NCBI RefSeq assembly: GCF_014200435.1
Contig: NZ_JACHBR010000002.1
Coordinates: forward strand, 300,501 to 364,500
Reading direction: 5' to 3'
DNA length: 64,000 nt
From: Sphaerisporangium krabiense
Lineage (GTDB): Bacteria > Actinomycetota > Actinomycetes > Streptosporangiales > Streptosporangiaceae
Made by a program: the position numbers and the translations under genes. Below are positions 2,212 to 50,972 of this stretch, piece by piece. The number at the start of each line of letters is the position of its first letter. Positions within the stretch are counted from its first letter, which is position 1. Under the pieces are notes generated by a model. It made no database searches. It was not told the DNA's origin and was given only the letters and a program-made list of their open reading frames with translations.

Positions 2212-2232
2212 GACGCCCGTCCCCGGCATTGC
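2212..2232 (-). promoter_or_regulatory. Cluster motif copy 1 (AraC gene)
   Basis: Minus strand reads GCAATGCCGGGGACGGGCGT, a weaker copy of the cluster consensus GCAATYNNGGAGATGCGCCG. It points towards the AraC gene, about 290 bases from the chosen start. Apart from this and the next copy, the 1922-2396 gap shows nothing recognisable. Confidence 0.45.
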
Positions 2233-2314
2233 GCACGCGCGTTCACCGGCCAGAATCCACGTCCCGGTGGCACCGATGTCGGGGGTTAGGGGGGTGTTCG
2301 TCCGGAATGCGAAA

Positions 2315-2335
2315 GCAACTCAGGAGATGCACCTG
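2315..2335 (+). promoter_or_regulatory. Cluster motif copy 2 (DUF5987-GMC operon)
   Basis: Plus strand reads GCAACTCAGGAGATGCACCT, matching the cluster consensus, 62 bases upstream of the DUF5987 start and on the same strand. The embedded GGAGATG resembles a ribosome site with a start codon but has no spacing. Confidence 0.65.
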
Positions 2336-2396
2336 TGCAGGCGATGCCGTTCCATGAACTGGTCAGCAGCCGACCTGGACGAGCGAGGATACGCGT

Positions 2397-2966
2397 ATGC
2401 GACCGCCATCCACAGATGTAGACGAAACCAGGACGATGACGCTGGAGGCGTTCGCGGACACGATCGTCCCCGGCGAGAAGCGCTCACCGGACGACCGGGC
2501 CATCGCCGGCGCCACCACCGGGGGCGGCGCGGTGCAGGCCGGGGCCCTTGACCTGCTCGGATGGGACGCGACCGGGCTGACCGAGGGGCTGGACGGCTTC
2601 GTCACCGCCCTCACCGGCCACGCCACGGCGTACGCCCTCGAGCACGGCCTGGACCTGGACCCGGCCGTCCCGCCGTTCGTGTCCCTCACCTTCGAGCACC
2701 GCACCGCGCTGGTGCGGCGGCTCACCACGCCCGGCCACCCCGAGAAGGAGCTCTGGGTCAGCCTCGCCCTGTTCTGCAACATGGCCTTCGACTCCGCCGC
2801 GCACATGAGCACCGCCGACGCCATCGCCCAGGGACACCCGGGCCTGCTGGCCATGGGCATCGAGAAGCCCGACGCCGACGGGCGGTGGAGGTTCCCGAAC
2901 TTCTCCTACGGCCGGCCGCTGGCCCGCCTGCACCCGGACACGACCCCCACAGGGAGTCCCTCATGA
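2397..2966 (+). CDS. DUF5987-like small partner of the GMC oxidoreductase
   Basis: A 189-residue protein resembling the DUF5987 / gluconate-2-dehydrogenase small-subunit type. It opens with MTLEAFADTIVPGEKRS, like the 'FADTIVPG' opening of such small subunits, and is mostly helical, without a signal peptide or membrane segment. The start at 2397 has GAGGA seven bases upstream; a second ATG at 2436 lacks a good ribosome site. Its stop overlaps the next start (ATGA at 2963-2966), so it should be made in step with the GMC oxidoreductase and probably forms a complex with it. Its own activity is unknown. The family name is by recognition, not by a search. Confidence 0.8.
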   Translation: MRPPSTDVDETRTMTLEAFADTIVPGEKRSPDDRAIAGATTGGGAVQAGALDLLGWDATGLTEGLDGFVTALTGHATAYALEHGLDLDPAVPPFVSLTFEHRTALVRRLTTPGHPEKELWVSLALFCNMAFDSAAHMSTADAIAQGHPGLLAMGIEKPDADGRWRFPNFSYGRPLARLHPDTTPTGSPS

Positions 2967-5778: not shown

Positions 5779-5800
5779 GCACTCACGGAGAAGACACCCG
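5779..5800 (+). promoter_or_regulatory. Cluster motif copy 3 (TIGR03084-prephenate dehydrogenase operon)
   Basis: Plus strand reads GCACTCACGGAGAAGACACC, 184 bases before the GTG start at 5984. It differs from the consensus in having AAG where most copies have ATG, as do copies 4 and 7. Confidence 0.5.
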
Positions 5801-9159: not shown

Positions 9160-9574
9160 CTGAAGTTCTCCCATGATCTCGTCGGAGAGATTGATCAGGA
9201 TGCCGGCCTGCCAATGCTGAAAAATTCAGGTGATTCGGCTCGCTCGCCGGAGGACGCCTGTCGGCCGCCGTATCGGTAATCGCCCGCGCATCCGTGACTG
9301 TATGCTGTAATAATACGTCGCCGCGGCCTGCCGCAATAGGGATGCGGGCGCCGCGGAAAGGTATTCAGCAATTCAGAAGAGGAATGGCGCGCCCGGCGCC
9401 GTGCCGCATTCTCGGAGAAAAAGAAGGCATAACGCGAGAAAGGCCGCGCATTTCCGGAGAAGACATTCTCCCGTGCGCGGCCTTCCGGGGCGGGGTCCCC
9501 GCAAACGCCGGGAGCCACCTCCGCCGGGTGGCGGGGGTGGCTCCCGGGTGGCGCGGGGCGTCGCGCCGGAGGGG
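9160..9574. other. Gap between P450 and MFS genes with several motif-like copies
   Basis: This gap holds a degenerate motif on the minus strand (9283-9305, containing CGGATGCGCGGG) that would serve the P450. It also holds three plus-strand variants beginning GCAATTCAGAAGA (9368), GCATTCTCGGAGA (9406) and GCATTTCCGGAGAAG (9448). No plus-strand gene follows these, so they may be remnants or may show that orientation is not absolute. The MFS terminator lies at 9510-9545. Confidence 0.4.
9510..9545 (-). terminator. Hairpin after the MFS exporter
   Basis: GGGAGCCACC at 9510-9519 pairs with GGTGGCTCCC at 9536-9545, a perfect 10-bp stem 30 bases past the MFS stop. Confidence 0.65.
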
Positions 9575-11206
9575 TCAGCCCGTGGTGACCTGGACGGCGG
9601 GCGGAGTGGGCTCGGACTCCGGTCCGGCCGCGGCCGCCGCCTCGCCGGACTCCTCGGCGCCGCCGCCGTGGCCGTGGTCGCCGCTCGGGTTCACGTGCCG
9701 CAGCGCGACCGCCGCGAGCACCGCGAGCAGGACGGCGAGGCCCGCGCTCACCGCGGCGCCCGAGTTGAGCGCCGAGGTGAACGCCTCGCGCGCCGCCGCC
9801 AGCAGGCCCGCCCCGGTGGCGCCGGGCAGGTCCGCGGCCACATGGACGGCGCTCGCGATGCTCTCGCTCGCGGTGGCCGCCGCCTGCGCGGGCACGCCCG
9901 CCGGGATCGCGTCGCTGATCTGGGCGCCGTAGACCGCGGTGCCGACGCTGCCGATGGCCGCGATGCCGAGCGCGATGCCGAGCTCGCCGCCGGTCTCCGA
10001 CAGCGACGCCGCCGACCCGGCCTTCTCCGGCGGCGCGGAGGCCATGATCAGCCCGGTGCCGAGGCCCGCCATCGGGCCCGCGCCGAGCGCGGAGACGTAG
10101 ATGCCGGCCACCAGCAGGCCGATGCCGGTGGAGTTGTCGACCTGGGTCACGAGCGCGTAGCCGATCGCCATGACCAGCAGGCCGCCCGCGATGGTGTAGG
10201 CGGGGCGGACCTTGCGGGCGATGATCGGGGCGACCTGCAGGCCGATGACCGTGGCCACGGTGCCGGGCACCAGCCACAGGCCCGCGCGCAGCGGCGAGAG
10301 CCCCTCGACCGTCTGCAGGTACAGGTTGATCAGCAGGAACGTGCCGCTCATGACGCCGCCGAAGACCATGATGATCAGCGCGGCGCTGAAGGAGCGGTTG
10401 CCGAACAGGCGCAGGTCGAGCAGCGGGTGCTCCAGGGTGCGCTGCCTGCGCACGAACAGCAGGCCGACGACCACGCCCACCGCGATGGCGACGAGCGAGG
10501 TGACCTGCACGCCGCTCTTGGCCAGTTCCTTGAGCCCGTAGATGAGGGGCAGGATCGTGGCCAGCGACATGATCACGCTGAGCACGTCGACCTTACCGGC
10601 GTTCGGGTCGCGGTACTCGGGCAGCAGCCGCGGCCCGGCCAGCAGGAGCAGGCCCATGACCGGAACGCTGAGCAGGAACACCGAGCCCCACCAGAAGTTC
10701 TCCAGCAGCACGCCGCCGACGACGGGGCCGATGGCCATGCCGCCCATGAAGCAGCTCATCCACACGGCGATGGCCGTGCCCATCTGCTTGGGGTCGCGGA
10801 ACATGTTGCTGAGCAGGGCGAGCGTGGAGGGCATGAGCGTGGCGCCGGTGATGCCCATGAGCGCGCGGGTGGCGATCAGCATCTCGGGGCCGGTGGAGTA
10901 GGCCGCCGCCACCGAGGCCAGCGCGAACAGGCCCGCGCCGATCATCAGCAGCCTGCGCCGGCCGATCCGGTCGCCGAGGGTGCCCATGGTGACCAGGCAA
11001 CCGGCGATCAGGAACCCGTAGATGTCGGTGATCCACAGCAGCTGGGTGCTGCCGGCGTCGAGGTCGGCGCTGAGCTGGGGCAGCGCCAGGTACAACACGC
11101 TCGAGTCCAAGGCGAGCAGCAGGGTGGGCAGGGCCAGTACCGCAAGCCCGATCCACTCGCGCCGTCCCGCCTTGACACCGGACCCGGCGTCGGCGATCGC
11201 ATCCAT
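9575..11206 (-). CDS. MFS drug exporter, DHA2 (QacA/EmrB) type, 14 segments
   Basis: A 543-residue membrane transporter. About 14 hydrophobic segments can be counted, the number expected for the DHA2 drug:proton antiporters. Motif A (LGDRIGRRRLLMIGA) sits in the loop after segment 2 and a motif C-like stretch (GMAIGPVVGGVLLE) in segment 5. The cytoplasmic tail is rich in His, Gly, Ala and Glu. The start is the ATG at 11206 with GGAAGGA upstream, one codon inside a TTG. It probably exports the cluster product, adding to the resistance expected from the UvrA-like protein. A cluster motif copy (11321-11341) lies 115 bases upstream on the same strand. Confidence 0.93.
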   Translation of the reverse strand: MDAIADAGSGVKAGRREWIGLAVLALPTLLLALDSSVLYLALPQLSADLDAGSTQLLWITDIYGFLIAGCLVTMGTLGDRIGRRRLLMIGAGLFALASVAAAYSTGPEMLIATRALMGITGATLMPSTLALLSNMFRDPKQMGTAIAVWMSCFMGGMAIGPVVGGVLLENFWWGSVFLLSVPVMGLLLLAGPRLLPEYRDPNAGKVDVLSVIMSLATILPLIYGLKELAKSGVQVTSLVAIAVGVVVGLLFVRRQRTLEHPLLDLRLFGNRSFSAALIIMVFGGVMSGTFLLINLYLQTVEGLSPLRAGLWLVPGTVATVIGLQVAPIIARKVRPAYTIAGGLLVMAIGYALVTQVDNSTGIGLLVAGIYVSALGAGPMAGLGTGLIMASAPPEKAGSAASLSETGGELGIALGIAAIGSVGTAVYGAQISDAIPAGVPAQAAATASESIASAVHVAADLPGATGAGLLAAAREAFTSALNSGAAVSAGLAVLLAVLAAVALRHVNPSGDHGHGGGAEESGEAAAAAGPESEPTPPAVQVTTG

Positions 11207-11320
11207 CAAAGATCCTTCCGTCTGTACTGTCCGGGCCGTTGTGACGACATCAGCTCGCTATCGCGACATTCTTTGTCAATACAAAAGGGTTCAGCTCAAG
11301 TCTTACCAGCCGAGATCTCG

Positions 11321-11341
11321 TTCGGGCTTCTCTCAGATTGC
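11321..11341 (-). promoter_or_regulatory. Cluster motif copy 4 (MFS exporter)
   Basis: Minus strand reads GCAATCTGAGAGAAGCCCGA, 115 bases upstream of the exporter start and pointing to it. The 11207-11616 gap is otherwise empty apart from copy 5. Confidence 0.55.
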
Positions 11342-11568: not shown

Positions 11569-11590
11569 GCAATGCCGGAGATGCGCCGCC
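11569..11590 (+). promoter_or_regulatory. Cluster motif copy 5 (HAD remnant)
   Basis: Plus strand reads GCAATGCCGGAGATGCGCCG, an almost perfect consensus copy, 27 bases upstream of the HAD fragment at 11617. Confidence 0.65.
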
Positions 11591-12008: not shown

Positions 12009-14750
12009 ATGTGGGTCGATCATGCCGGGGGTCCGAAGGGCGCGCGCGTCCTTCCGAAAGGCGTTCACTATATTTTCCAGGTCATCGACGCCGCGGTGGC
12101 CGAACGGGCGGACGGCCGCCGTATTCCGATCGTTCTGATCACGCATGAGCACGGTCCCGGCGAGCCGGAGACGGCGGGTGAGGAAACGGCGCAGTCGTGG
12201 CTGGTCTCGGCGTACCGTGAACGCCTTTCCCGGCAGCGCGGGCCGGGCCGTGACGGCCTGGACAGCATCGTCCCGCACGCCTACGTCGACGACGCCGCGC
12301 TCGTGGCCTCGTACGAGCCGCACATCGCCCTGGTCGAGAGCGTCCGCGACCAGCTCAGACGCTCGATGCGGGGGAGCGGCGTGCTGCGGTTCCCCTGCCT
12401 CGACCCGTGCCTGACGATCCTGCGCACCGAGGCCGGCGTGGGCACGGCGAAGGACACCCTGCTGCGCGACACGCTGTACGCCGCCTACAAGGCCGAGCGC
12501 TCCTGGCTCGACTGGCTGCCCGAGCTCGCGAACGCCGTCGGCAAGCAGACCCCCTCGGGGGGATGGTTCGACGTGGTGCGGATACCCGCCTCCCGCCTGG
12601 TCCGGAGGGTGTACACCAACCGGCTCCGTCGCACGCACCGCTGGCTCGAAGGCGTGCTCCAGGCCCCCGGTGGCGACTTCCTCGGCACGGCGTTGGAGAT
12701 CGTCAAGGACGGTCCCCGGCGGGGCAACGAACCGCTCGTCCAGCGAATCCTGCTGATGGCGCTCATGCGCGACCTCGCCAAGGCCGTGCGCGGCCCATGG
12801 CCGGGGTGGCTGTGGGGCCGGCGCCGCCCGGGACGGCCCTGGCCGTTCGTCGTCCTGCTCGGCACGGTGGGCGATCCCGGCGCGCCGAGCCGCGCGTTCC
12901 TCGACCGGTACACCGACCTCGCGCGGACCGAGGACCCCGCCCCGCTGATGATCCTCGGAGCGCTCACCGGGGAGGTCCCGCCCTATGCCTTTCCCCTCAC
13001 GCCGGACGCCGGTCCCGGCGCGGCGCCGGCGCGCGGCCGTAGCGCGCCGATGCTCCTGGCGGACCGGCTCTCGGCGCTGTACGCCCGCGGCGACGACGAC
13101 GGCGCCGGCGTCCACCTGCTGCCGCTGTCCGCGGAGCCGGACGAGGGCATGGACGCCGACTGGCTCCAGGCCAATCCCAAGGTCGTGCCGCCACGGGTCC
13201 GGCGGCGCGCGAAGGTGCGCCCGTACCTGCCCGTCATCGTCGCGTCCGTGCTGCTCGCGGCGCTGACGCTCGTCCTGCGCCCTGGACCGGCCCCGTCGGC
13301 GGCCCCCGTGAAACCGTCCTCGTGCCGGAAGACCAAGAACACCGACGAGATCGTCGGGGTGACCGACGGCCTGCGGTGCACGCTGGCCGGGCCGCAGGAC
13401 ACCGTGCTGCGGGAGCTGGAGCGGATCGCCGGAGAGCAGAACAAGGCCCTCACGCCCGGCCGGGCCTACCGGTCGGTGGTCTTCCTCGCTCCCCTCACCA
13501 ACGCGAAGGAGAACGACAACGCGGTGCCGTCCGGCATCCCAGCCCTGCGCGGCGCGCTGCTCGCGCAGCGGCAGATCAACAAGGCGCAGGTCAGGCGGAT
13601 GCCGGTCCGGCTGCTCATCGCCAACGCCGGCGAGCAGTTCAGATACGGGTCGGACTGGTCGAGGGACCGCGAGGGCATCGACGTCGCCCAGATGATCATC
13701 GACGCGGCGGCGGAGGAGCACGTCGCGGGCGTCATCGGCATCACGCAGAGCCGGCAGGAGTCGCTGCGGGCCGCGCACGAGCTGGACCGGGCGCAGATCC
13801 CCGTCATCGCGACGGGCACCGTGGGCAGCAAGATGGTGGACTTCGACGCCCCACCGCGGTACTTCCAGGTGTCGCCGACCAACGACCGGATCTCCCGGGT
13901 GCTGGCCGATTTCGCGGTGAACTCCGAGGACCTGCGGAAGCTCACCGGGCCCGGGCCGGCCACCGCGGTCATCGTCCACGACCCGGCGGACGAGTTCTTC
14001 AGCGCGGACCTCACCGACAAGTTCGGCGAGCGGTACCTCGAGGCCGGCGGCGACGTCAGGAAGATCGCCTACCTGGAGAAGGGCAACGACAGGAACACGC
14101 GCGACGTCGCCGAGGAGATCTGCCGGACGGTCAAGGCCACGAACGGCTTCGTCCTGTACACGGGGCGCTCGGGCGTGATGCCCAACCTGTTCGGCGCCCT
14201 GCAGCACGAGCCCATGTGCGAGAAGAGCGAAGGCACGATCGCGGTCCTGGCCGAGAGCGTCGATCCGGATCTCATCACCGCGCCCGAGCGCATGGGGCGC
14301 GAGTACCCGTACCTGACGCTGTTCTACTCGGCCTCCAACCCCATCGACGACGGGGACCTCAAGCACGCCTCCACCAGGTTCTCCCGGGACTTCCGCGAGA
14401 CGTTCCACCGGGACGACCCCGACATCGAGGCCGCGGGCGGGTTCGACGCGCTGAACGTGCTCTCCGAGGTGATCAACGCGGTCTACACCGCTCACTCCGA
14501 CGGCGACGTCCGCCCGAGCGACGTGTACCAGCACCTGCTCAACACCGGGATCACCCATCTGGGCGCGACCGGCAGGCTGAGGCTGGACGGCCGCCACAAG
14601 TACCCGCCGGACAAGGCCGTCTACATCCGTGAGATCGACCCGCAGGGGCGAATTCTGCCGCGCCTGGCCTGCGGGATCCTCCACAACACCGACGTGGCCA
14701 CCACCTGGGGGCCCAAGGGCCGCCCGCACCCCTGCCCGCGCGACCCGTGA
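12009..14750 (+). CDS. Membrane protein with cytoplasmic N-terminal domain and extracellular type 1 periplasmic-binding domain
   Basis: A 913-residue protein in three parts. Residues 1-400 have no signal peptide and look cytoplasmic, with hydrophobic strand-like pieces such as IPIVLITHEHGPG and WPFVVLLGTVGD; I see no clear Walker A. One transmembrane segment follows near residues 402-420 (YLPVIVASVLLAALTLVL). Residues 425-913 resemble the type 1 periplasmic-binding fold of branched-chain amino-acid receptors (VAGVIGITQSRQES, IPVIATGTVGSKM, RYFQVSPTNDRISRVLADFA, FDALNVLSEVINAVY). The layout is that of a one-pass receptor: ligand outside, effector inside. The start at 12009 has GAGGAG seven bases upstream, and the frame stays open back to a stop near 11910. 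The function is unknown. It has no cluster motif directly upstream and converges on the sugar genes. Confidence 0.85.
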   Translation: MWVDHAGGPKGARVLPKGVHYIFQVIDAAVAERADGRRIPIVLITHEHGPGEPETAGEETAQSWLVSAYRERLSRQRGPGRDGLDSIVPHAYVDDAALVASYEPHIALVESVRDQLRRSMRGSGVLRFPCLDPCLTILRTEAGVGTAKDTLLRDTLYAAYKAERSWLDWLPELANAVGKQTPSGGWFDVVRIPASRLVRRVYTNRLRRTHRWLEGVLQAPGGDFLGTALEIVKDGPRRGNEPLVQRILLMALMRDLAKAVRGPWPGWLWGRRRPGRPWPFVVLLGTVGDPGAPSRAFLDRYTDLARTEDPAPLMILGALTGEVPPYAFPLTPDAGPGAAPARGRSAPMLLADRLSALYARGDDDGAGVHLLPLSAEPDEGMDADWLQANPKVVPPRVRRRAKVRPYLPVIVASVLLAALTLVLRPGPAPSAAPVKPSSCRKTKNTDEIVGVTDGLRCTLAGPQDTVLRELERIAGEQNKALTPGRAYRSVVFLAPLTNAKENDNAVPSGIPALRGALLAQRQINKAQVRRMPVRLLIANAGEQFRYGSDWSRDREGIDVAQMIIDAAAEEHVAGVIGITQSRQESLRAAHELDRAQIPVIATGTVGSKMVDFDAPPRYFQVSPTNDRISRVLADFAVNSEDLRKLTGPGPATAVIVHDPADEFFSADLTDKFGERYLEAGGDVRKIAYLEKGNDRNTRDVAEEICRTVKATNGFVLYTGRSGVMPNLFGALQHEPMCEKSEGTIAVLAESVDPDLITAPERMGREYPYLTLFYSASNPIDDGDLKHASTRFSRDFRETFHRDDPDIEAAGGFDALNVLSEVINAVYTAHSDGDVRPSDVYQHLLNTGITHLGATGRLRLDGRHKYPPDKAVYIREIDPQGRILPRLACGILHNTDVATTWGPKGRPHPCPRDP

Positions 14751-14778: not shown

Positions 14779-15915
14779 TCACCAGCCCGAGCGGATGGTC
14801 GCGACGACGTGGGCGCGATCCTCCTCCGACAGCCACCAGCCGACGGGGACGTGCACGACCCGGTCGTGCACGGCGTCCAGGTTGGGCAGGGCCTCGGCGG
14901 CGTCCGGCGGCAGACAGGTGTGGGTGTCGTTGCGCCGGACCACCGCGCTCGCCTGGATGCCGGCGTCCGCCAGCTTCCTGATGAAGTCGGCGCGCCGCTC
15001 CACCTTCACCGGGTACAGCCAGAACGACGACTCCTCGCCCTCGGGCCGCGCGGTCGGCTCCAGGCCCGGCACGCCCGCGAGGTGCTCGTCGAAGTGGGCG
15101 GCGTTGCGGCGGTGCAGCGCCACCCGGTCGGCGACGGTCTCCAGGTTGGCCAGGCCGATGGCCGCGGCGATCTCGCCGAGGTAGAAGTTGTAGCCCCATT
15201 CGGGCACGTCGTAGTCGCCGTTGACCCGGTCGGCGCGCCGGTCGATGCCGAAGAACCGCAGGCGCAGCGCACGGCGCAGCGACTCCTCGTCCGGGGTGAC
15301 GAGCATGCCGCCCGCGCCGCACGCCAGGTGCTTGGTGGCGTGGAAGCTGAACACGCAGTAGTTGCCGTGGTTGCCGAGCGGCGTGCCCCGCAACGTGGTG
15401 CCCCACGCCTGCGCGCAGTCCTCGATGACGGGCGGGCGGAACCCGTGGGCCGCCTCGGCGTCGTCGAGGACGCGCGCCAGCCGTTCGACGTCGACCGGGT
15501 GCCCGGCCCAGTGGACGACCATGATGGCGCGGGTGGCCGGCGAGATCTTCTTGGCCAGGTCGTCCAGGTCCATGTTGAGCGTGCCCGGGTCCACGTCCAC
15601 CCAGCGGACGCGGAAGCCGTTGGCGAGGATGGCCCAGTTGGTGGCCTCGAAGGTGAGGGCCGTGGTGAGCACCTCGCCGCGGTCGCCGTCCCCCGGCGGG
15701 TTCGAGCCGGGGGGACTGGTCGCGAGCCGCAGGGCCAGGTGCAGGCCGGAGGTCCCGTTGTTGACGGTCGCCAGGTGCGGGGTGCCGACGCGGGCGCGCA
15801 GGGCGTCCTCGAACTCCTCGACCCGCGGCCCGTGCCCGAGCACGGCGGTGCCGATGACCTCGCGCACCCGGTCGGCGGCGTCGGGCGCCAGCGCGACCTT
15901 GAACAGGGGGATCAT
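14779..15915 (-). CDS. NDP-4-keto-sugar aminotransferase (DegT/DnrJ/EryC1)
   Basis: A 378-residue PLP enzyme of the sugar aminotransferase family. Marks are NNGTSGLHLAL (phosphate-binding region), MVVHWAGHPVDVERL, VIEDCAQAWG with the aspartate that holds the pyridine nitrogen, and SFHATKHLACGAGGML with the Schiff-base lysine. It transfers an amino group to a keto sugar nucleotide, most likely C-4 of the NDP-4-ketopentose made by the decarboxylase at 19718. The start is taken as the ATG at 15915 with AGGGA upstream; a GTG at 15927 adds four residues. It follows the N-methyltransferase by about 30 bases in one operon, so the amine is probably methylated next. Confidence 0.92.
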   Translation of the reverse strand: MIPLFKVALAPDAADRVREVIGTAVLGHGPRVEEFEDALRARVGTPHLATVNNGTSGLHLALRLATSPPGSNPPGDGDRGEVLTTALTFEATNWAILANGFRVRWVDVDPGTLNMDLDDLAKKISPATRAIMVVHWAGHPVDVERLARVLDDAEAAHGFRPPVIEDCAQAWGTTLRGTPLGNHGNYCVFSFHATKHLACGAGGMLVTPDEESLRRALRLRFFGIDRRADRVNGDYDVPEWGYNFYLGEIAAAIGLANLETVADRVALHRRNAAHFDEHLAGVPGLEPTARPEGEESSFWLYPVKVERRADFIRKLADAGIQASAVVRRNDTHTCLPPDAAEALPNLDAVHDRVVHVPVGWWLSEEDRAHVVATIRSGW

Positions 15916-15945
15916 GCCGTCCCTCACCTCAGGATCACCGCCGGG

Positions 15946-16695
15946 TCAGTGCCGGATGCCGACGAACAGCCCGCGGCCGGCCAGGATGTCGCCGGGCTCG
16001 ACGTACTCCACGGTGCACCCGGCGCGCAGGAACGCCGACTCGTACTGCTCGGGCGAGAACAGGGTGAAGATCTGGACGTGCTCGAAGTGCCGCACGCCCG
16101 CGGAGTCGGCCACGACGTAGTGGGCCTGCTGGTGGACGGCGTCGCCGTGCCGCACCGACCGGGCGATGCGGGCGACCGTGCGGCCCTCGGTCCGGATCAC
16201 GTCGTCGCCGATGTGCCCGTCGATGAACGTGTGGGGGAAGTACCACGGCTCGACGATGAGCACGCCTCCGGGGGAGACGTGCCCGGCCATGGTGGACACC
16301 GCGGCGTCCAGCTCGGCGGTCGTGCGCATGTAGCCGACCGTGCTGTACATGCTGGTCACGGCGTCGAAGGTGCGGCCGAGGCGGAAGTCGCGGATGTCGC
16401 CGGGGTGGACGAGCACGCCGGGCAGCTTCTCGGCCGCCGCCGCGCGCATCGTGTCCGACAGCTCGACGCCCTCGACGTGGTCGAAGACGGTCCGCAGCGT
16501 GCGCAGGTGCTCGCCCGTGCCGCACGCGACGTCGACCAGCGAGTTCGCGTCGGCCTTGCGCGCGCGGATCAGGTCGACGAGGATCCGCGCCTCGCGCGCG
16601 TAGTCCTTGCCGCGCCCCTGGTAGAGGAGGTCGTAGACCTCGCTGACCTCCGGCGCGTAGACGTTGGTGTCTCGCACGGAGAAATCTGTGGTCAT
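15946..16695 (-). CDS. NDP-aminosugar N-methyltransferase (DesVI/TylM1 type)
   Basis: A 249-residue SAM-dependent methyltransferase. The SAM-binding motif is LVDVACGTGEHL near residues 47-58, preceded by the family opening VYDLLYQGRGKDYA. FDAVTSMYSTVGYM and VEPWYFPHTFIDG match the DesVI/TylM1 N-methyltransferases of amino deoxysugars. It should add one or two methyl groups to the 4-amino group installed by the neighbouring aminotransferase. The start is the ATG at 16695 with GGGGAGA upstream; the frame is open further up but without family content. It is the first gene of a two-gene operon with its own motif copy at 16768-16789. Confidence 0.92.
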   Translation of the reverse strand: MTTDFSVRDTNVYAPEVSEVYDLLYQGRGKDYAREARILVDLIRARKADANSLVDVACGTGEHLRTLRTVFDHVEGVELSDTMRAAAAEKLPGVLVHPGDIRDFRLGRTFDAVTSMYSTVGYMRTTAELDAAVSTMAGHVSPGGVLIVEPWYFPHTFIDGHIGDDVIRTEGRTVARIARSVRHGDAVHQQAHYVVADSAGVRHFEHVQIFTLFSPEQYESAFLRAGCTVEYVEPGDILAGRGLFVGIRH

Positions 16696-16767
16696 CGGCG
16701 TCTCCCCACGGGTCGGTAAGGAGGGCCCGGTCGCGGCCCCGCACCTGAGCCTCCCGCCCGGGCGCCG

Positions 16768-16789
16768 CGGCGCGCATCTTCTGTCGTGC
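16768..16789 (-). promoter_or_regulatory. Cluster motif copy 6 (N-methyltransferase operon)
   Basis: Minus strand reads GCACGACAGAAGATGCGCGC, 73 bases upstream of the N-methyltransferase. It faces away from copy 7, which serves the divergent gene. Confidence 0.6.
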
Positions 16790-16833
16790 GGATCTCCGGC
16801 GCGTGCGGGGCGGTGATCGCGCCGGGCACCACG

Positions 16834-16855
16834 GCATTTCCGGAGAAGGTTCGCG
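16834..16855 (+). promoter_or_regulatory. Cluster motif copy 7 (C-methyltransferase)
   Basis: Plus strand reads GCATTTCCGGAGAAGGTTCG, ending 27 bases before the ATG at 16882. That gene has no clear ribosome-binding site, so a very short or absent leader is possible. Confidence 0.55.
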
Positions 16856-18173: not shown

Positions 18174-18195
18174 GCAATCGGGGAGATGCGGCGGG
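18174..18195 (+). promoter_or_regulatory. Cluster motif copy 8 (first acyltransferase)
   Basis: Plus strand reads GCAATCGGGGAGATGCGGCG, about 200 bases before the TTG start at 18397. The remaining 200 bases show no gene. Confidence 0.65.
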
Positions 18196-22181: not shown

Positions 22182-22203
22182 CGCACGGCATCTCTTGAAA
22201 TGC
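22182..22203 (-). promoter_or_regulatory. Cluster motif copy 9 (NDP-glucose dehydrogenase operon)
   Basis: Minus strand reads GCATTTCAAGAGATGCCGTG, 129 bases upstream of the dehydrogenase. It forms a divergent pair with copy 10. Confidence 0.65.
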
Positions 22204-28656: not shown

Positions 28657-28678
28657 GCATTCCAAAAGATGCACCGGG
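28657..28678 (+). promoter_or_regulatory. Cluster motif copy 11 (epoxide hydrolase operon)
   Basis: Plus strand reads GCATTCCAAAAGATGCACCG, about 214 bases upstream of the epoxide hydrolase start. Confidence 0.6.
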
Positions 28679-31610: not shown

Positions 31611-31632
31611 GCACGCAGGAAGATGCGCGCGC
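31611..31632 (+). promoter_or_regulatory. Cluster motif copy 12 (UvrA-like resistance gene)
   Basis: Plus strand reads GCACGCAGGAAGATGCGCGC, 131 bases upstream of the UvrA-like start. The resistance gene is thus tied to the same signal as the pathway genes. Confidence 0.6.
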
Positions 31633-37200: not shown

Positions 37201-40200
37201 GGTGACCTGGCGCAGGTGCCCGGTCGTGTCGTACCGGTACGACGCGATCACGCTGGTCCTCATCGCGTTGGCCGCCGGGTCGAACGCGGTGAACGAGACG
37301 GTCCTGGCCTGGCCCGCGAAGTCGCCCCATCCGGACGCGACCCCCGTCGCCGTCGTGGCCGCGGCGTACGAGAGCTCCAGCGCCCGGCAACCGGCGGTCA
37401 GGGTGGCGCCACAGGTGACGCCCGCCGACACCGGCGCGAGCACACGGGTGATCCGTCCCTGCGCGTCGCGGAAGTAGGTGACCGCGGACTCGGTCGCCGA
37501 CGACTCGGTCCGCGCGACGACCCAGCGGCCGAGGACCTCGGTGTAGGTGGTCTTGGCGCCGACCGGGTCGGTGAAGACCAGTTGATCCCCGGAGGGGGTG
37601 ATCCGGGAGCCGTCGGCCGCGTCGCCGACTCCGGCGAACCCGGCGCCGTCCTTGACGTAGGACAGGGTCGAGCCGTCCGAGCCCAGCATCTGCAGGGACC
37701 CCGACTCTCCTTCGCCCACGAGGGCGTAATCGTTCGCGCTCAGACCGGCGGGGAAGCCGGCGCGCCAGCCAGGCCCGAAGATCTTGTTTTCGGCGAGTTG
37801 CTCGTCGGCGCGTTCGGCTTCGGGGACCAGCGTGGTGAGCGACCGGCGCACTTGCACGCCGAACAGGTCGGCGTCGGTGAGGCTGACGAGGTAGTCGCCG
37901 GACTGGAGGGCGACCTTGCCCGGGCCGACGTTCGCCGTGGCGTAGGAGCCGCCGAACGCGGACCGGTCGAGCGTCACCCTGGCCGGGTCGGTGCACTCCT
38001 CGCCGGTGGCACCGCCGGACAGGCAGGCCCGTACCTCGATCGTGCCGTCGGCGACGGACGCGTCATGGAGGGACTTGGCCAGGTCCCATGACAGCGGGCC
38101 GAAGTCTTCCGCGGTGTTCGTGCGGTTCTGCGGCCACGCCGCCAAAGGCCGGCCGGAACCCGGGACGGTAACGTCGGCCGAGGGCACCGTGACCCAATCG
38201 TCGAGGTCGTAGAGGCTCGCCCGGTACTCGTACCGGACGTCGGTACGGCCCGGCGGTGCCGCGGCGGCCAGGGTGACCGAGCCCTGGGTACGAGCGCCCG
38301 GCTTGAGACCGGTCAGGCCGCCGGCGCCGACCCCGAAGGTGTACGTGGCGAGCGTGGAGGTGTTGTGCCCCTTGTCGCGGACCTTGGCATAGAGCGTGTG
38401 CCGGCCGCTCGTGGCCTCGATCGGGAACCAGATCGCCTTCTGGTCACCGGTCCACCCCCAGCCGTCCTTCCGCAACTCGGGAAGGCCGGGATCATCCAGC
38501 CCCCACCAGATCTCGGTGGGCTCGGGATCCTCCGCGTCGGTGCCCTCGGTGTACACCCCGCACTCGGCGTCCGTGATCGGCGCGCGCCACTGGCCGGAGG
38601 GGTAGGTGCAGTGGATCTCGGCCGTGGGCGGTGTCGCGTCCACGGTGACGACCTGCCACTCCGACCAGGCCGAGACGGAGGAGCCGTCGCTCGCGCGGGC
38701 CCGCCAGCGCAGCTTCCAGCCGTCGCTCAGGTACCCGGACGGGATCGTGATCCTGGCCTCCGTGCCCGCGGGCACGTCGTCGACCGCCCCGGACCAGGCC
38801 AGGCCGGTGCCCTGCTGGGGGACGGACGGGTCATGCTCGACCTGGTACTCGGCGCGCAGCAGGCCGCCGTCGATGTCGCGGACGCCCGCGAAGAGCGTGG
38901 GCGTGAGGGTGTTGGTGTAGTACTTGTGGTCGCCGGCCGCCACCGGCTGCAGCCGCGCCTGGCCGTCGATCCAGGGCGTCGTTCCGAAGGTCACCACCAG
39001 CTTGGGCGCGGTGGCCCCGCCGTCGTCGAAGTACCAGCCGAAGCTCTCGGCGCGGTTCTGCTCGTCGCCGGGGGCCAGGACCAGGCCGCGGCCCGCCGCG
39101 CCGCCGGCCCAGGCCTTGGCGATCGCGGTCACCGGTATCGACCAGGGGGTGTCCTCGGTGTACGAGGTGGGGCCGCACACCGCGGGGGGCGCCGAGAGGA
39201 CCTCACCGTCGGCGGTGGAGGCCGGCTGGCCGGACCACGTGACCGAGTTGGGGTTCCAGGTACCGGTGAGGCGGCGCACCCGGAGGCGCTGACCCGCGGG
39301 GCAGTGGAGCAGGTCGCCGACGAGCTCCAGCCTGGCGTCGACCACGTCCTGCCCGGCCAGGCTCGCGGTGTCGAACCGGATCAGCCCTCGGCTCACCCGT
39401 GAGCCGTTCGCCGCGTACCCGCACTCGTAGTCGTCGTTGCCGCTGATCGCCGGGCTGAGCTCCCAGCTCGTCGCCTCGCCGGCGTGCCCGTTCGTGCAGG
39501 GGGAGTTGAGGGTCCGCGCCGCGAGCGAGGTGAGGGTGGTGGTGGGATCGACCGTCACCGGGTAGCGCGTCCGAGGGTCGGCCAGGAACTTGGCGTCGGG
39601 TTCGAGGACGAGCGTCCGCCGTGCCTTCCCGCCCGTCACGCGGGCGGCGATCGGAGCGCGTGCCCCTGTCGCCCGTGCGGGCCGAGGGCCGTCGCCCGGG
39701 GGAGACTCGTACACGACCGGCGCGGGAGCGGAGGCGACGACCTCGCCTTTGCCCGTGCTGAGCTTCAGGCCGCCGTCTTCGGTGACGCCGAGCGTGACGC
39801 CCTCGGTCTGCACGGGAAGCTCGAATCTCACCGGTGCGGTGGGGCGCTGACGCAGGACCACATCGTGGCGGAAACCCGCGGGAAGGGCGGTCACCACGAG
39901 ATCGGCGTTTCGGCCGGCGGCGTCGGCGTACGTGGCGACGGCGCCCTTCACGGTGGGCCTGGGCAACGCGGTCGGCCACGACAACGCGATGAACCGTCCG
40001 TCACCGTAGGACATCTTCGCCAGCGGACGGTCGCCGCCGCCGGCGGAGAATTCCACGTCGGCCTTGGTCGCGCGCGGGCGCAGCACACCGCCGGCCTCGG
40101 CCAGCGCCGGGTCCACCGGGACCCACGCCTCGCCCCGCTTGACCCGGGCGATCCCGCCCGCCGCCTCGATGGTGAAGGTGGAGTCGGCATTGGCGTAGGT

Positions 40201-40461
40201 GAGGTTCGACTCCGTCGTCTCGCCGGTGACGAGGACACGGCTGCCCTGGGAGCGCGCCGCCAGCGATGCCGACACGCGATCCGGGCGCTCGGTCACCGGG
40301 ACCGTCCGCTCCGGCGACCGCGAGGGAGGGTCCTGTGCGGACGTCCGGTCGGCGGTGACCGGAGTCAGGGCCAGAGCAGGGGTGAGGATCAGCACCGCGG
40401 CGCGCCGTGTGAAGCGCCGGTGGCGCACCGTGGCGAAAAAGCTTGTAGGTAATCGGGACAT
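34270..40461 (-). CDS. Secreted Rhs/YD-repeat protein with DNRLRE domain and variable tip
   Basis: A 2063-residue exported protein. A signal peptide with twin basic residues and a hydrophobic core lies in residues 1-45 (RRAAVLILTPALALTPVTA). A DNRLRE-type domain follows near residues 300-490 (SRGLIRFDTASLAGQDVVDARLEL is its typical heart), then many YD repeats (YDAAGRLT, YTYDEFGRT, AYDADGRQTGY). The Rhs core ends YNPGTGRMLQSDPVTGG...DPVNGLDLDG near residue 1955. The last 105 residues are a variable tip: a 45-residue Ala/Cys-rich hydrophobic stretch, then a Lys/Thr/Cys-rich end. Such tips are usually toxins, but I do not recognise this one and no immunity gene follows on the same strand. No cluster motif precedes it. 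It appears inserted between cluster genes. Confidence 0.93.
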   Translation of the reverse strand: MSRLPTSFFATVRHRRFTRRAAVLILTPALALTPVTADRTSAQDPPSRSPERTVPVTERPDRVSASLAARSQGSRVLVTGETTESNLTYANADSTFTIEAAGGIARVKRGEAWVPVDPALAEAGGVLRPRATKADVEFSAGGGDRPLAKMSYGDGRFIALSWPTALPRPTVKGAVATYADAAGRNADLVVTALPAGFRHDVVLRQRPTAPVRFELPVQTEGVTLGVTEDGGLKLSTGKGEVVASAPAPVVYESPPGDGPRPARATGARAPIAARVTGGKARRTLVLEPDAKFLADPRTRYPVTVDPTTTLTSLAARTLNSPCTNGHAGEATSWELSPAISGNDDYECGYAANGSRVSRGLIRFDTASLAGQDVVDARLELVGDLLHCPAGQRLRVRRLTGTWNPNSVTWSGQPASTADGEVLSAPPAVCGPTSYTEDTPWSIPVTAIAKAWAGGAAGRGLVLAPGDEQNRAESFGWYFDDGGATAPKLVVTFGTTPWIDGQARLQPVAAGDHKYYTNTLTPTLFAGVRDIDGGLLRAEYQVEHDPSVPQQGTGLAWSGAVDDVPAGTEARITIPSGYLSDGWKLRWRARASDGSSVSAWSEWQVVTVDATPPTAEIHCTYPSGQWRAPITDAECGVYTEGTDAEDPEPTEIWWGLDDPGLPELRKDGWGWTGDQKAIWFPIEATSGRHTLYAKVRDKGHNTSTLATYTFGVGAGGLTGLKPGARTQGSVTLAAAAPPGRTDVRYEYRASLYDLDDWVTVPSADVTVPGSGRPLAAWPQNRTNTAEDFGPLSWDLAKSLHDASVADGTIEVRACLSGGATGEECTDPARVTLDRSAFGGSYATANVGPGKVALQSGDYLVSLTDADLFGVQVRRSLTTLVPEAERADEQLAENKIFGPGWRAGFPAGLSANDYALVGEGESGSLQMLGSDGSTLSYVKDGAGFAGVGDAADGSRITPSGDQLVFTDPVGAKTTYTEVLGRWVVARTESSATESAVTYFRDAQGRITRVLAPVSAGVTCGATLTAGCRALELSYAAATTATGVASGWGDFAGQARTVSFTAFDPAANAMRTSVIASYRYDTTGHLRQVTDPRLGLSTVYYYNGEGRVSQITPPGLAPWRMEYDTRGRISHVQRENGDTDLTQAVAYDVPIGGAGAPVDLTVTQTAKWGQTSDLPVVGTAVFPATRVPARGTDGAYRPGGGDWEYGRITYMDVNGRPVNMADYGAGAWQVGTSRFDDKGNVVWNLSPRNRAHALTPNGETDPYVAGRRDSAERADLLAGIDVYNEDSDVLSRLTPARPVVLVSGAVVSARQRTTYAYDEGKPSSSIRYHLITTTKVEPLVLDGTAAPDAGDVRTTRTGYDPVMAGDTSGWTLRMATSATTVMPGQADIVQRTRYDAAGREIESRMPRSGGADAGTTVSHYYTADPQPGVPECGNKPQWSGLSCRTAPAAQPSGRPIPATTLTYGYLEQITSRTDRSGSTTRTSTSGYDAAGRLTSTTVAVTPAAAGGTPVPDITYAHDPDTGLPATVSAGGSTITTGYDSLGRVISYSEPGNTASYTYDEFGRTATVSDGKGTATHTYDGTDAAGKQERRGQVTKIDVSGVGAFTAAYDADGRQTGYGLPGGLTATYRFDNTGAPASLTYAKNGATWMSFTATSDVLSRTVRATGPAGDQRYAYDAAGRLTKAEDTWARSCVTRVYAYDADTNRTGLSTYPSAPGGACSTNTAPAVVTHAYDAADRIADPGYTYDDLGRVLTTPAAHVADGGNVTSAYFANDVVAGLDQGGRSQTFTIDPIGRIRTMGDADGTITDHYSSGSDSPAWISETNGAWTRYVLAFDRLAAVQASDGTVKLQLTNLHDDVVGTTGTTASAGLDAYFEFTEFGAARDDTGAGKRFGWLGAKERSADPLGGLVLMGVRLYNPGTGRMLQSDPVTGGCANRQDYAMQDPVNGLDLDGRACRKRLNHDKLQSCLAAAAIAIEVATAACATACGATLGLACVCFIAVVAVATALIAACWLSSRETCCTQNKTVTSKVTTSSRVCAKRNKKGQCTKWTTRKITSHISKTYTTEVCR

Positions 40462-40957: not shown

Positions 40958-41453
40958 CCATGCTCCTTTTCGAGAATTGATGCCGCCCGACACGCCGGCG
41001 CGGTCGTGCGGCAGGTGGAGATCTCGGCCATGTCCGGGCGGCGTAAGACGCTACGCGCCGTGCGAAGCGCGCGACCTTGCATAGGATGCCGGAGGGTTCG
41101 AGCGGCGTTCTGGCGCCGTACTTGCGGCGCCCTTTTCCTTGTCGGCGGTGCGGCATTCCGAATATGGGATTTCGTCTCCGGTGACTCTCGGAACATTCAT
41201 TCGCGGCCGGTCGAAATGAATGGGTGTCCGAGGGGACGGCGCTCCGGGAACGTCGCCGGCGTGCCAGGCCGGCCGGGCGCCCGGCCGGATGCGGAGGGAG
41301 GGGAAACGGCCCCAGACGCGCCCCAGGTGGCGGACGCCGCAATCTGGAAGGTGCGGGGAAGCCCGTGGGCCCTCAGCATTGACGTGCCCGTACCCGCCGC
41401 CGAGGACGTCCGCCGCGCGGGTGCGGTGACCGCAGCCTGGGGTGGAGGAGGAC
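40958..41453. other. Intergenic region at the return to cluster genes
   Basis: This 496-base gap between the small secreted protein and the O-methyltransferase holds cluster motif copy 13 near its right end and a weak motif-like GCATTCCGAATATGGGATTT at 41153. No gene is seen. The Rhs insertion edge may lie here, but no direct repeat or transposon end is visible. Confidence 0.4.
41339..41360 (+). promoter_or_regulatory. Cluster motif copy 13 (O-methyltransferase-P450 operon)
   Basis: Plus strand reads GCAATCTGGAAGGTGCGGGG, about 95 bases upstream of the O-methyltransferase. Confidence 0.55.
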
Positions 41454-43775: not shown

Positions 43776-43801
43776 TCGTCATGGAGCCGTCATGGCGGGC
43801 G

Positions 43802-45052
43802 TCACGCGGCCGTGCGCGACAGCGCGGTCGCGAGCTCGGCGTCCAGGGCCTCGACCGCCGACAGGAGCTGCGCGTCGGACAGGTAGGGGGCCGGGCCGAG
43901 GCGCAGGCGCCCGGCACGGGCGTCGGTGCGGACGCCGCGCGCGGCCAGGCCCGCCTGCAGGCGGTCGGCGTGCGGGGTGCGCAGGGACAGGAACCCGCCG
44001 AAGTCCTCCGGGGCGCCCGAGCGGTCCCGGGTGATGACGTCGTCGGGCGCGCCGAGCGCGTCGAAGGCGGCGGTCAGCAGGCCGACCTGGCGCAACGACA
44101 CCGCGCGCAGGAACGCGGGCGTCAGCCCCTGCTCCTCGAAGAAGCCGAAGACGTGCGCGGCGCGGTAGTGGCTCGTCGGGTCGTAGGTGGAGCCCGCGTA
44201 CCGGGCGGCGCCGGTGGGGTAGGCGACCGCGCCGGGACGGTGCGCCGCGGACAGCTCGGCGAACTCCGCGAACCAGCCGGTGATCACCGGGCGCAGCGCG
44301 TCGGCGTGCGCGGGCAGGCGCAGGAAGCAGTTGCCCTCGCCGAGCTGCAGATACTTGTAACCGCCCCCGACCACCCAGGCGTTCTGGATGCCGTCCACCG
44401 AGAACGGGACGGCGCCGAGCGCGTGGTAGGCGTCCACGAGCAGCTCGGCCCCCCGCCGCGCGCACGCGCCCGCCAGCGCGTCCAGGCCGGGGACGACGCG
44501 GGCGCTCTCGAACAGCACCGCGGAGACCAGCACGGCGGCCGTGCGGTCGTCCACCGCGGCGGCCATCCGCGCCGCCAGCGTGTCCGCCGGAGTGGCCGGG
44601 ACCCGCACCACCTCGACGCCCTCCTCGGCGAGGCGGGCGAGCTGCCGCCGCAGCGTGTGGAACTCGCCGTCCGAGGTGACCAGCCGGGGACGCGCCCGCA
44701 GGTCGAGCGCGGACAGGAACCGCAGGACGAGGTCGTGGGTGTTCGCGCCGAGGGCCAGCTCGGCGCGCGGGTCGCCGAGGAACAGGCGGAAGCCCTCGCG
44801 CACCCGCTCGGCCTTGGCGAACGCCGCCCCCCATTTCTCGTCCACCTCCAGCGCGGCGTCGCGGAACGCCTCGACCTGCCCGGTCAGCGCCACGTCCGGC
44901 CACGCCTGGTGGGAGTGCCCGGTCAGCAGCGGCCGCCGCGACACCTGGAAGGCGGAGTAGTGCGGCGCGAGCCGCCCCGACACGTCGCCGGGCGTCTCCG
45001 GCGCGAAGGGCGGCGTCCCGGTGAGGAGGACGCCGGTCGCGGTGGCCGTCAC
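43802..45052 (-). CDS. kynU: Kynureninase
   Basis: A 416-residue PLP enzyme that cleaves kynurenine (or 3-hydroxykynurenine) to anthranilate (or 3-hydroxyanthranilate) and alanine. It shows LTGHSHQAWPD, LGANTHDLVLRFLSAL, LLVDAYHALGAVPF with the aspartate that binds the pyridine ring, GGGYKYLQLGEGNCF with the Schiff-base lysine (Lys233), and SHYRAAHVFGFFEEQG. The start is a GTG at 45052 inside ATGTGA, overlapping the stop of tryptophan dioxygenase, so the two enzymes are translationally coupled. No kynurenine 3-monooxygenase is in the window; ring hydroxylation may be done by a P450. No formamidase gene is seen. Confidence 0.92.
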   Translation of the reverse strand: MTATATGVLLTGTPPFAPETPGDVSGRLAPHYSAFQVSRRPLLTGHSHQAWPDVALTGQVEAFRDAALEVDEKWGAAFAKAERVREGFRLFLGDPRAELALGANTHDLVLRFLSALDLRARPRLVTSDGEFHTLRRQLARLAEEGVEVVRVPATPADTLAARMAAAVDDRTAAVLVSAVLFESARVVPGLDALAGACARRGAELLVDAYHALGAVPFSVDGIQNAWVVGGGYKYLQLGEGNCFLRLPAHADALRPVITGWFAEFAELSAAHRPGAVAYPTGAARYAGSTYDPTSHYRAAHVFGFFEEQGLTPAFLRAVSLRQVGLLTAAFDALGAPDDVITRDRSGAPEDFGGFLSLRTPHADRLQAGLAARGVRTDARAGRLRLGPAPYLSDAQLLSAVEALDAELATALSRTAA

Positions 45053-46143: not shown

Positions 46144-46165
46144 GCAATTTGAAAGATGCCGGGCG
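46144..46165 (+). promoter_or_regulatory. Cluster motif copy 15 (aryl acid ligase)
   Basis: Plus strand reads GCAATTTGAAAGATGCCGGG, 159 bases upstream of the ligase start. Confidence 0.6.
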
Positions 46166-47913: not shown

Positions 47914-47935
47914 GCATTTCAGAAGATGTGCCGTG
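47914..47935 (+). promoter_or_regulatory. Cluster motif copy 16 (second acyltransferase)
   Basis: Plus strand reads GCATTTCAGAAGATGTGCCG, 97 bases upstream of the acyltransferase start. Confidence 0.6.
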
Positions 47936-49406: not shown

Positions 49407-50786
49407 TCAGCGGGCCGTCGCACCCGGGCTGACGTCGCCCCGGAACAGCCCGCCGGGGTCCACGCGGTCGCGCACCCGGTCGGCGCGCTCGGCCTGGGCG
49501 GCGCTCAGGTGCCCCTGCGGCTGGGCGAAGTTCTCCACGAACGACGGCGCCGTCCGCCCGGTGTCCCAGGGGGACAGCGCCGCGCGGACCTTCGCGCAGT
49601 GCTCCTCGATGGCCGCCGTCACCGCGGCGTCCTCGGCCACGCCCGCGCCCGAGTAGGCGTAGTGCGCGTCCAGGTGGTCCAGCGCGCCGCCGCCGGGGGA
49701 GGGCCGCCCGTAGGCGCCGCCGAGCTGGCGCAGCCCCGCCACGACGAACGGCGAACCCGAGCCCGCGCCGAGCAGCCGCAGGAACGCGGCGGCGCCGTCG
49801 TCGCCGATCTCGCGCAGCAGCATGTGGTCGCCGACGATCGCGATCGGGTCGTCCGGCTCCATGTGCGCGCGCAGCACCGCCGACGGCTCGGTGAGCTGCC
49901 AGTCGTCCATCACGGGCTCGGCCACCGCGCGCAGCGGCCCGAGCAGGTCCTCCGCCTGCCGCGTGGCCGCGGTCACGTCGTCGTCCAGGCTCAGCACCGC
50001 CCCGTCCACGCAGATCACCGGCCCGGCGGCCAGCGCGGGCGGCACCCCGGGCACCGGCGGCAGGTTCATCACCCGCAGCGACGTGGTCACCTCGTCCGGC
50101 GCGTCCAGCGTCCACCGTCGCCAGGCCGCCAGCAGGCCCTCGGCGTGCGCGGCCGGCCAGTACGTCGCCCCGGTGATCACCTTGGCGGCCGGGAACAGGG
50201 CCACCTCGACGGCGGTCACCACGCCGAAGCCGCCGCCACCGCCGCGCACCGCCCAGAACAGCTCCGGGTCGGTCTCGGCGTCCACGCGGCGCTGCTCGCC
50301 GTCCGCGGTGACCAGCTCGACCGCGCGGACGCTGTTGATCGCGAGCCCGATGTGCCGGCCGTAGAAGCTCAGACCGCCGCGCAGCAGGTAGCCGACGACG
50401 CCCACGGTGGGGGAGGAGCCGTGCGGCGCGGTCAGCCCGTACGGGGCCGCGGCGTCCACGACGTCGCCCCACAGCGTCCCGGCCGGGACCCTCGCCACCC
50501 GGCGCGCGGCGTCCACCTCGACGCCGCCCTCCAGGTTCGTCCGGATCAGCAGCGCGCCGTCCATGGGGCGCGCGGTGCCGGAGGCGTGCCCGGTCGTGTG
50601 CACGCGCACCGGCAGCCCTTCCGCCCGCGCGTGCCCGATCGCCGCACGGATCTGGTCGATGGTGCGCGCGGTCACGGCCGCCGCCGGCCGGGCCGGCGTG
50701 GCCAGGTTGAACACCCGCGTCGCGGCCTCGAACGCCGGGTCGCCGGGACGGGCGACTCCGGTGTCCCGCTCGTCGATCGTGGTCAT
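49407..50786 (-). CDS. FAD-linked oxidase, berberine-bridge-enzyme (BBE) type
   Basis: A 459-residue flavoprotein of the FAD_binding_4/BBE family. The PP-loop region has VHTTGHASG, with the histidine in the place that binds FAD covalently in relatives. AGTLWGDVVDAAAPYGL and GVVGYLLRGGLSFYGRHIGL complete the FAD domain, and a BBE tail VRDRVDPGGLFRGD ends it. The cysteine that bicovalent members use (GxCxxVG-like) is replaced in GSSPTVGVVG, so a single covalent link or none is expected. Such enzymes oxidise alcohols or close rings. The start is the ATG at 50786. The frame is open back to the motif at 50897-50918, but the family content starts here. Confidence 0.9.
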   Translation of the reverse strand: MTTIDERDTGVARPGDPAFEAATRVFNLATPARPAAAVTARTIDQIRAAIGHARAEGLPVRVHTTGHASGTARPMDGALLIRTNLEGGVEVDAARRVARVPAGTLWGDVVDAAAPYGLTAPHGSSPTVGVVGYLLRGGLSFYGRHIGLAINSVRAVELVTADGEQRRVDAETDPELFWAVRGGGGGFGVVTAVEVALFPAAKVITGATYWPAAHAEGLLAAWRRWTLDAPDEVTTSLRVMNLPPVPGVPPALAAGPVICVDGAVLSLDDDVTAATRQAEDLLGPLRAVAEPVMDDWQLTEPSAVLRAHMEPDDPIAIVGDHMLLREIGDDGAAAFLRLLGAGSGSPFVVAGLRQLGGAYGRPSPGGGALDHLDAHYAYSGAGVAEDAAVTAAIEEHCAKVRAALSPWDTGRTAPSFVENFAQPQGHLSAAQAERADRVRDRVDPGGLFRGDVSPGATAR

Positions 50787-50896
50787 GAGTGACACGCCTT
50801 CCGGAAACACCCCCGGAGAAGAGGGTGAGGGAAATGTGATTACACGCCGAACGCCGTCGAGTCCGGCGGTGCGGTCAGATTCACACGCGCGCGCCC

Positions 50897-50918
50897 GCCC
50901 GCGCATCTCCGTGATTGC
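50897..50918 (-). promoter_or_regulatory. Cluster motif copy 17 (BBE oxidase)
   Basis: Minus strand reads GCAATCACGGAGATGCGCGG, 111 bases upstream of the BBE start. It forms a close divergent pair with copy 18. Confidence 0.7.
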
Positions 50919-50950
50919 GCTGTGATCCCGGCCGGGCCCAGGTCAGGACG

Positions 50951-50972
50951 GCACTCTCGGAGATGTCGCCGC
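50951..50972 (+). promoter_or_regulatory. Cluster motif copy 18 (methyltransferase operon)
   Basis: Plus strand reads GCACTCTCGGAGATGTCGCC, 120 bases upstream of the methyltransferase at 51092. Confidence 0.6.

Follow-up and report, generated by a model that had tools for sequence, protein, structure and literature searches.

Many enediyne gene clusters are known only from genome sequence. An activator site shared by the genes of such a cluster points to a candidate regulator and tells which genes belong to the cluster, including pieces that lie tens of kilobases apart or elsewhere in the genome. Here we describe a short directional element repeated in a 64,000-nucleotide stretch of Sphaerisporangium krabiense (the window; contig NZ_JACHBR010000002.1, hereafter C2, positions 300501-364500), together with the AraC-family regulator that is its candidate reader. 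The closest described system is the SgcR1/SgcR2/SgcR3 cascade of the C-1027 cluster. There, binding of SgcR3 was observed at the sgcR1R2 promoter and at neither its own promoter nor the structural-gene promoters tested; SgcR3 acts above SgcR1 and SgcR2 (PMC2657911). This differs from the SgcR2 site proposed here, and the accessible text of that paper gives no SgcR2 binding site. In the papers found, it is not settled what SgcR1 and SgcR2 each do at the C-1027 structural genes, a question on which the element bears. In the tiancimycin cluster, the AraC-family activator TnmR7 was insoluble and could not be used in a gel shift (PMC9464397). TnmR7 resembles the S. krabiense protein in family and role, as an AraC-family positive regulator of an enediyne cluster.

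The proteins MarA, SoxS, Rob and RamA have the same double helix-turn-helix and a class II promoter position (PMC8811837; PMC8279559), and RamA is described as a class II activator that contacts sigma region 4 (PMC8811837). Rob carries an additional C-terminal domain, comparable to the C-terminal part of the S. krabiense protein. These systems differ from ours, because the element has a cluster-specific regulon, a different consensus and another host group. The marbox is a directional site, like our element. The 16-bp sites of PimM-type PAS-LuxR regulators overlap the -35 region, a similar promoter position, but they are clearly palindromic and belong to another protein family. The earlier note on this DNA knew of no described motif of this form. 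Our literature searches, largely without subscription journals, found none either, and no published binding site for an enediyne AraC regulator. A cluster-situated activator with its sites is of a familiar kind; within the reach of these searches, this particular code, and how widely enediyne producers share it, seem not to have been described.

In S. krabiense, the homologous regulator gene lies at 1151-1987 on the minus strand (positions without a contig label are those of the window). Its 278-aa product is 55% identical to SgcR2 over 245 aa. HTH_18 (3.4e-22) and HTH_AraC both score above the Pfam cut-off, which makes it a double helix-turn-helix protein; the motifs occupy approximately residues 38-129 in the N-terminal part, and the C-terminal part has no Pfam match. 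We assigned the protein to the SgcR2 type by its sequence similarity and its place beside the enediyne polyketide synthase cassette. The next-best match to it in the same genome reaches 40% identity, in the helix-turn-helix part only. In the best segments, it is 89% identical to a protein of Sphaerisporangium album and 75-83% identical to those of seven other Sphaerisporangium records. RamA, Rob, SoxS and MarA are its sequence relatives in the PDB.

The genes for PKSE, UnbU, UnbV, two DUF1702 proteins and the E10 thioesterase are located directly upstream of the window (C2:287.8-299.2 kb). A second patch of the cluster (C2:386-402 kb) encodes a tyrosine aminomutase, an adenylation/condensation protein, a carrier protein, a hydroxylase and an acyl-CoA dehydrogenase-like protein. 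A 50-kb C-1027 stretch has 40 annotated features, of which 38 served as tblastn queries. For 27 of these 38 proteins there is a match (E<=1e-6) in the 164-kb region that surrounds the window, although a few matches are weak (e.g., the acyl carrier protein, 35%). The identities were 64% for PKSE, 68% for UnbU, 58% for UnbV, 80% for E10, 78% for the tyrosine aminomutase, 77% for the hydroxylase and 80% for the GMC oxidoreductase. Judged by its PKSE, UnbU/UnbV, E10 and tyrosine aminomutase genes, the locus is a C-1027-like enediyne cluster.

The element and its probable promoter position

The core of the element is GCAWTYNNRRAGATGC and has a length of 16 bp, not the 22 bp previously given. To score copies, we used a matrix of 84 sites outside the S. 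krabiense region and accepted scores of at least 13; this matrix is not fully independent, since the 84 sites were first retrieved with a matrix from the S. krabiense cluster. The first matrix attempts at lax thresholds drifted and were discarded. Of the 18 gap-free copies in the earlier note, 16 score at least 13. The copies 2212- and 45943- score 1.7 and -5.1 and are not sites. The minus-strand starts shift by 5-6 bp, because the earlier coordinates fit the low end of the 22-bp stretch.

The copies are concentrated in the cluster. In the 164-kb region, 25 matches score at least 15, versus a mean of 0.4 and a maximum of 3 in ten first-order Markov resamplings. When a -10 score of at least 2 is also required, there are 21 matches versus none in the resampled sequences. 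In the whole genome (8.53 Mb, four contigs), the strict pattern GCAHTYNNRRAGATGC has 12 matches, 10 of them within C2:318-400 kb, and the looser pattern GCAWYNNNRRAGATGC has 16, with 13 within C2:302.8-399.8 kb. The reversed controls gave no matches. Thus, the check for an even genome-wide spread of equal matches, which had been proposed along with the motif, favours it. Among the matches of the external matrix, those at C2:268803- and C2:409248+ are without explanation, as is the match at C1:4392938, which overlaps the start of an open reading frame (ORF).

We assigned 21 transcription-unit heads in the window by hand. Gene starts are uncertain; for two of them (22400 and 50880), the called ORF ran past the site and the start was placed manually. 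A same-strand site was found at 16 of the 21 heads, and its position ranges from 48 bp inside the start used to 440 bp before it. The other five heads have none. Sites also exist beyond the window, outside the view of the earlier note: one (C2:287735+) precedes the PKSE operon, at its DUF1702 head, and others occur in the second patch (C2 387949-, 387974+, 389535+, 399700- and 399747+).

A downstream hexamer is a further part of the pattern, absent from the earlier description. The spacing was determined on 103 unique sites, picked by the 16 core positions only, that come from 80 loci with an AraC gene, from five plasmid loci and from the S. krabiense region; the hexamer was searched in a gap range of 12-29. 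In 87 of the 103 sites, a -10-like hexamer near GACGAT lies 19-20 bp after the core (20 bp in 57 sites and 19 bp in 30). If this hexamer is the -10 element, the middle of the core falls at about -40, and the core spans the -35 region. A site that overlaps the -35 region at a fixed distance from the -10 element is characteristic of class II activator-dependent promoters, and by sequence alone the core looks like such an activator site, not like a repressor operator. Of the "operator or promoter element" proposed earlier, the cluster-wide promoter element is the favoured part. The asymmetry noticed before is strong, as none of the 103 sites scores better when reversed. A weak pseudo-palindrome is also present (correlation of 0.32 with the reverse complement, reached by 3.8% of column permutations).

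The same element occurs at C-1027 promoters. With a matrix from the S. krabiense cluster only, the C-1027 cluster has 10 matches (resampling mean 0.43), of which 9 are intergenic and precede a same-strand gene by 80-229 bp (binomial P 7.6e-11). Homologous targets that have sites in both clusters are the PKSE operon, at its DUF1702 head, the pair of methyltransferase and P450 genes, the acyl-CoA dehydrogenase gene and the gene of the large adenylation protein. On three other Streptomyces plasmids, 3/3, 2/3 and 3/4 matches lie upstream of genes, and one unannotated plasmid has 5 matches. The element is limited neither to this cluster nor to this species.

The AraC regulator as candidate reader

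The E10 thioesterase was matched at E<=0.001 in 130 of the 297 Streptosporangiaceae genomes sampled. The matches fall into two identity classes, and a few weak ones are probably not E10. To relate the motif to the regulator, we compared 80 chosen genomes: that of S. krabiense, 41 with an E10 identity above 65%, 25 with a lower identity and 13 without an E10 match. A genome was counted as AraC-positive when it had a match at E<1e-50; six AraC-negative genomes hold weaker matches between 1e-35 and 1e-50. The 30 AraC-positive genomes have 253 pattern matches versus 35 in the reversed control, and the 50 AraC-negative genomes have 27 versus 34. Among the 30 genomes with three or more matches, 29 are AraC-positive, and the remaining one, G581, has an AraC match at 1.3e-46. 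The contrast stands inside the five genera that hold both states (permutation P 0.0015). Eight genomes with an E10 identity above 65% and no AraC match, which represent one evolutionary case, have 0-1 pattern matches. The motif thus appears to be tied to the regulator and not to the enediyne genes. A further 33 genomes that encode an AraC relative and, judged by record title, lie outside the family have 112 matches versus 11 in the control. The recognition helices (MFSKFHF and SVGTFSxRF) are nearly invariant in 40 aligned AraC homologues, as expected if the site is conserved. In addition, SgcR2 is the only one of the four C-1027 regulators matched in the 164-kb region. The AraC protein, which the earlier note considered suited to an asymmetric site, is thus the favoured reader.

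The element is very probably the binding site of the SgcR2-type AraC activator (1151-1987), a candidate site at about -40 of promoters with a GACGAT-like -10 element. An AraC monomer would contact GCAAT and AGATGC with its two helix-turn-helix motifs. The centres of these blocks are approximately ten base pairs, about one helical turn, apart, which would place them on the same face of the DNA. The bound protein may then contact sigma region 4 and turn on most enediyne transcription units together. This mode of action is proposed by analogy with MarA, SoxS, Rob and RamA; binding, activation, transcription start and monomer geometry are inferred. The earlier observation is right with small corrections, and its interpretation is well supported by the sequence comparisons, with the binding itself putative.

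The promoter of the AraC gene itself has no site, and neither has the region before sgcR1R2. Because its gene has no site, AraC is probably controlled from above. Together with the binding of SgcR3 to the sgcR1R2 promoter, the absence of sites at both places suggests a cascade with SgcR2-type proteins at the structural genes; here we infer the role of each protein at the sites.

Several findings weigh against AraC as the reader. Five heads in the window have no site: those of the AraC gene, P450 7909, beta-lactamase 27080, RHS 34270 and tryptophan dioxygenase 45049. Of the 19 window sites scoring at least 13, three (9368+, 9448+ and 28337+) are tied to no head. One comparison stretch had 1 match, and the 50-kb stretch L153 beside the C-1027 cluster, on the same plasmid, still has 5 (resampling mean 0.27), therefore it is not a clean control. 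G143 is AraC-positive and has 1 match (control 1). The AraC-bearing genomes G650, G669 and G673 have none; they belong to the out-of-family set, which includes no AraC-negative comparison. The eight genomes with the closer type of E10 and no AraC all fall in genus group g3. Finally, AraC marks one subtype of enediyne cluster, and another factor conserved in this subtype could bind.

Among such factors, a TrmB-LuxR-type regulator encoded near the second patch (C2:404690-405703) has the most in its favour. In this reading, a dimer of the protein would recognise an imperfect inverted repeat in the element, and the weak pseudo-palindrome of the core would also suit a dimer. The TrmB label was assigned from the N-terminal sequence, and the GerE match is just under the Pfam cut-off. 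Of the 30 genomes with three or more matches, 23 have a homologue at E<1e-90, which also counts against AraC as the only candidate. However, no such homologue was found in six AraC-positive genomes, G398, G414, G430, G016 (which has one at 1e-43), G487 and G504, and these keep 6-11 matches each, so we rejected it as a general binder; G143, the seventh AraC-positive genome without it, has 1 match. The strong directionality of the sites also argues against a dimer, and binding by this protein is very unlikely. The TrmB-LuxR gene often co-occurs with AraC-bearing clusters, and its product is a possible upstream regulator.

It is slightly less probable still that the two blocks are the -35 and -10 elements of an alternative (extracytoplasmic function, ECF) sigma factor. 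The near-fixed spacing and the unusual GACGAT hexamer fit this idea, and in some relatives a probable ECF sigma gene was seen by eye beside AraC. A two-block core of 16 bp is longer than the usual -35 element, which counts against it. The ECF factor seen in the relatives, the only one queried, has no match at E<=1e-25 in the S. krabiense genome, and it was rejected as a general binder. In L025, L028, L029 and L039, from several genera, the probable ECF sigma gene lies by eye between AraC and the GMC gene.

A factor encoded elsewhere could merely co-occur with the AraC-bearing cluster subtype, and co-occurrence cannot separate genes that always travel together. It would need to be common to Streptosporangiaceae and Streptomyces, and the other three C-1027 regulators, when queried, had no match in the S. 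krabiense region; we consider this explanation highly improbable. Hardly credible is a StrR-type regulator (SgcR1 type), which adjoins AraC in C-1027 and three other Streptomyces clusters and is present at E<1e-30 in 15 of the 30 genomes with three or more matches, but has no match in the 164-kb region (the single match in the genome at E<=1e-10 is on C1) and is largely refuted as a general binder by counts that follow AraC: 3-15 matches in 15 AraC-positive genomes without StrR, 0-3 in 17 AraC-negative genomes with it, and 11 in G487, which has neither StrR nor TrmB-LuxR.

Other clusters and an unlinked AfsA locus

The genome scan gave at least 80 loci with AraC relatives. In the 11 that were read by eye, enediyne genes (for PKSE, E10, P450, flavin reductase or GMC oxidoreductase, among others) surround AraC, not each gene in each locus. 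We also read 11 short stretches around matches in other genomes. By eye, UDP-glucose dehydrogenase genes lie at the matches in G540, G454 and G522, and the matches in G414 have genes of the acyl-CoA dehydrogenase-like and carboxymuconolactone types beside them. These sites are probably cluster pieces on other contigs.

The match in G151, another of the stretches read, is an AfsA pair. In S. krabiense, a divergent pair of AfsA-type and ketosynthase III (KSIII) genes (C1:468499-468748; L150:10499-10748), well away from the enediyne cluster, is flanked on either side by one site. Close AfsA homologues were found in 5 of the 60 genomes searched, S. krabiense included; all five are AraC-positive, represent three genus groups and have two sites at the locus, with scores of 21.9-28.2. 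One of them, G548, is very near the S. krabiense genome (AraC 99%, AfsA 93%). A distant sixth homologue (38%) has no site. On two Streptomyces plasmids, ScbA/ScbR-type genes stand beside enediyne clusters. It is possible that the enediyne activator is linked to signal synthesis.

Tentatively, a good part of the enediyne clusters of actinobacteria, in several families, may be governed by one cis-regulatory code that one orthologous AraC activator reads. The upstream layer would be exchanged (StrR in Streptomyces; TrmB-LuxR or ECF sigma in Streptosporangiaceae), and the activator would also reach the unlinked AfsA/KSIII locus and thereby butyrolactone-like signal synthesis. Such an arrangement, in which the activator is conserved and the regulators above it can be exchanged, is relevant to the evolution of regulatory circuits.

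The gene content of the Streptomyces sp. ADI95-16 plasmid (L154) resembles the S. krabiense cluster: prephenate dehydrogenase, epoxide hydrolase, acyltransferases and FAD-binding protein. A tryptophan dioxygenase is encoded there too, and the product is perhaps related.

Sites and other features in the window

Opposite the AraC gene, the site at 2315-2330 (+, score 23.8) precedes the DUF5987-like/GMC oxidoreductase genes, and sites like it stand opposite AraC in most Sphaerisporangium loci read. A weak site (5779-5794, +, 13.7) lies before a TIGR03084/MDMPI-like gene and the prephenate dehydrogenase gene. The MFS transporter gene 9575-11209 is preceded by 11326-11341 (-, 21.1). The site 11569-11584 (+, 22.5) lies 440 bp before the uncertain start of a 913-aa protein without a Pfam match. 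At 16774-16789 (-, 16.1), the site is 48 bp inside the start used for 15946-16837 (no Pfam match), which heads a unit with the aminotransferase gene 14779-15927. The sites 16834-16849 (+, 17.4) and 18174-18189 (+, 21.4) precede a 400-aa protein without a Pfam match and acyltransferase 18397.

The following sites are accompanied by a hexamer with a gap of 20: GACCAT after 22188-22203 (-, 25.6), before UDP-glucose dehydrogenase/epimerase; GATCCT after 22286-22301 (+, 26.2), before aminotransferase, glycosyltransferase and nucleotidyltransferase genes; GACGAT after 28657-28672 (+, 26.2), before epoxide hydrolase and FAD monooxygenase; CACCAT after 46144-46159 (+, 26.7), before an AMP-dependent ligase; GACGAT after 47914-47929 (+, 27.1), before acyltransferase 48032; and CACCAT after 50951-50966 (+, 18.8), before three methyltransferases. 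The O-methyltransferase and P450 genes follow 41339-41354 (+, 19.9), and their C-1027 homologue also has a site. The FAD-linked oxidase gene is preceded by 50903-50918 (-, 22.4). At 31763-34090, a UvrA-like gene that probably confers resistance, the only site is weak (31611-31626, +, 15.4).

The core-like sequences at 9368 and 9448 (9368-9463) have no downstream hexamer. Another, at 28337-28356, is not before a gene head and opens a short perfect inverted repeat. The gene of a 2063-aa RHS-repeat protein (34270-40461) lies within the cluster and has no site. No Pfam match was obtained for the cluster ORFs 12009-14750, 15946-16837 and 16902-18102, with sites at or before their heads, and 43779-44903, which may not be a gene.

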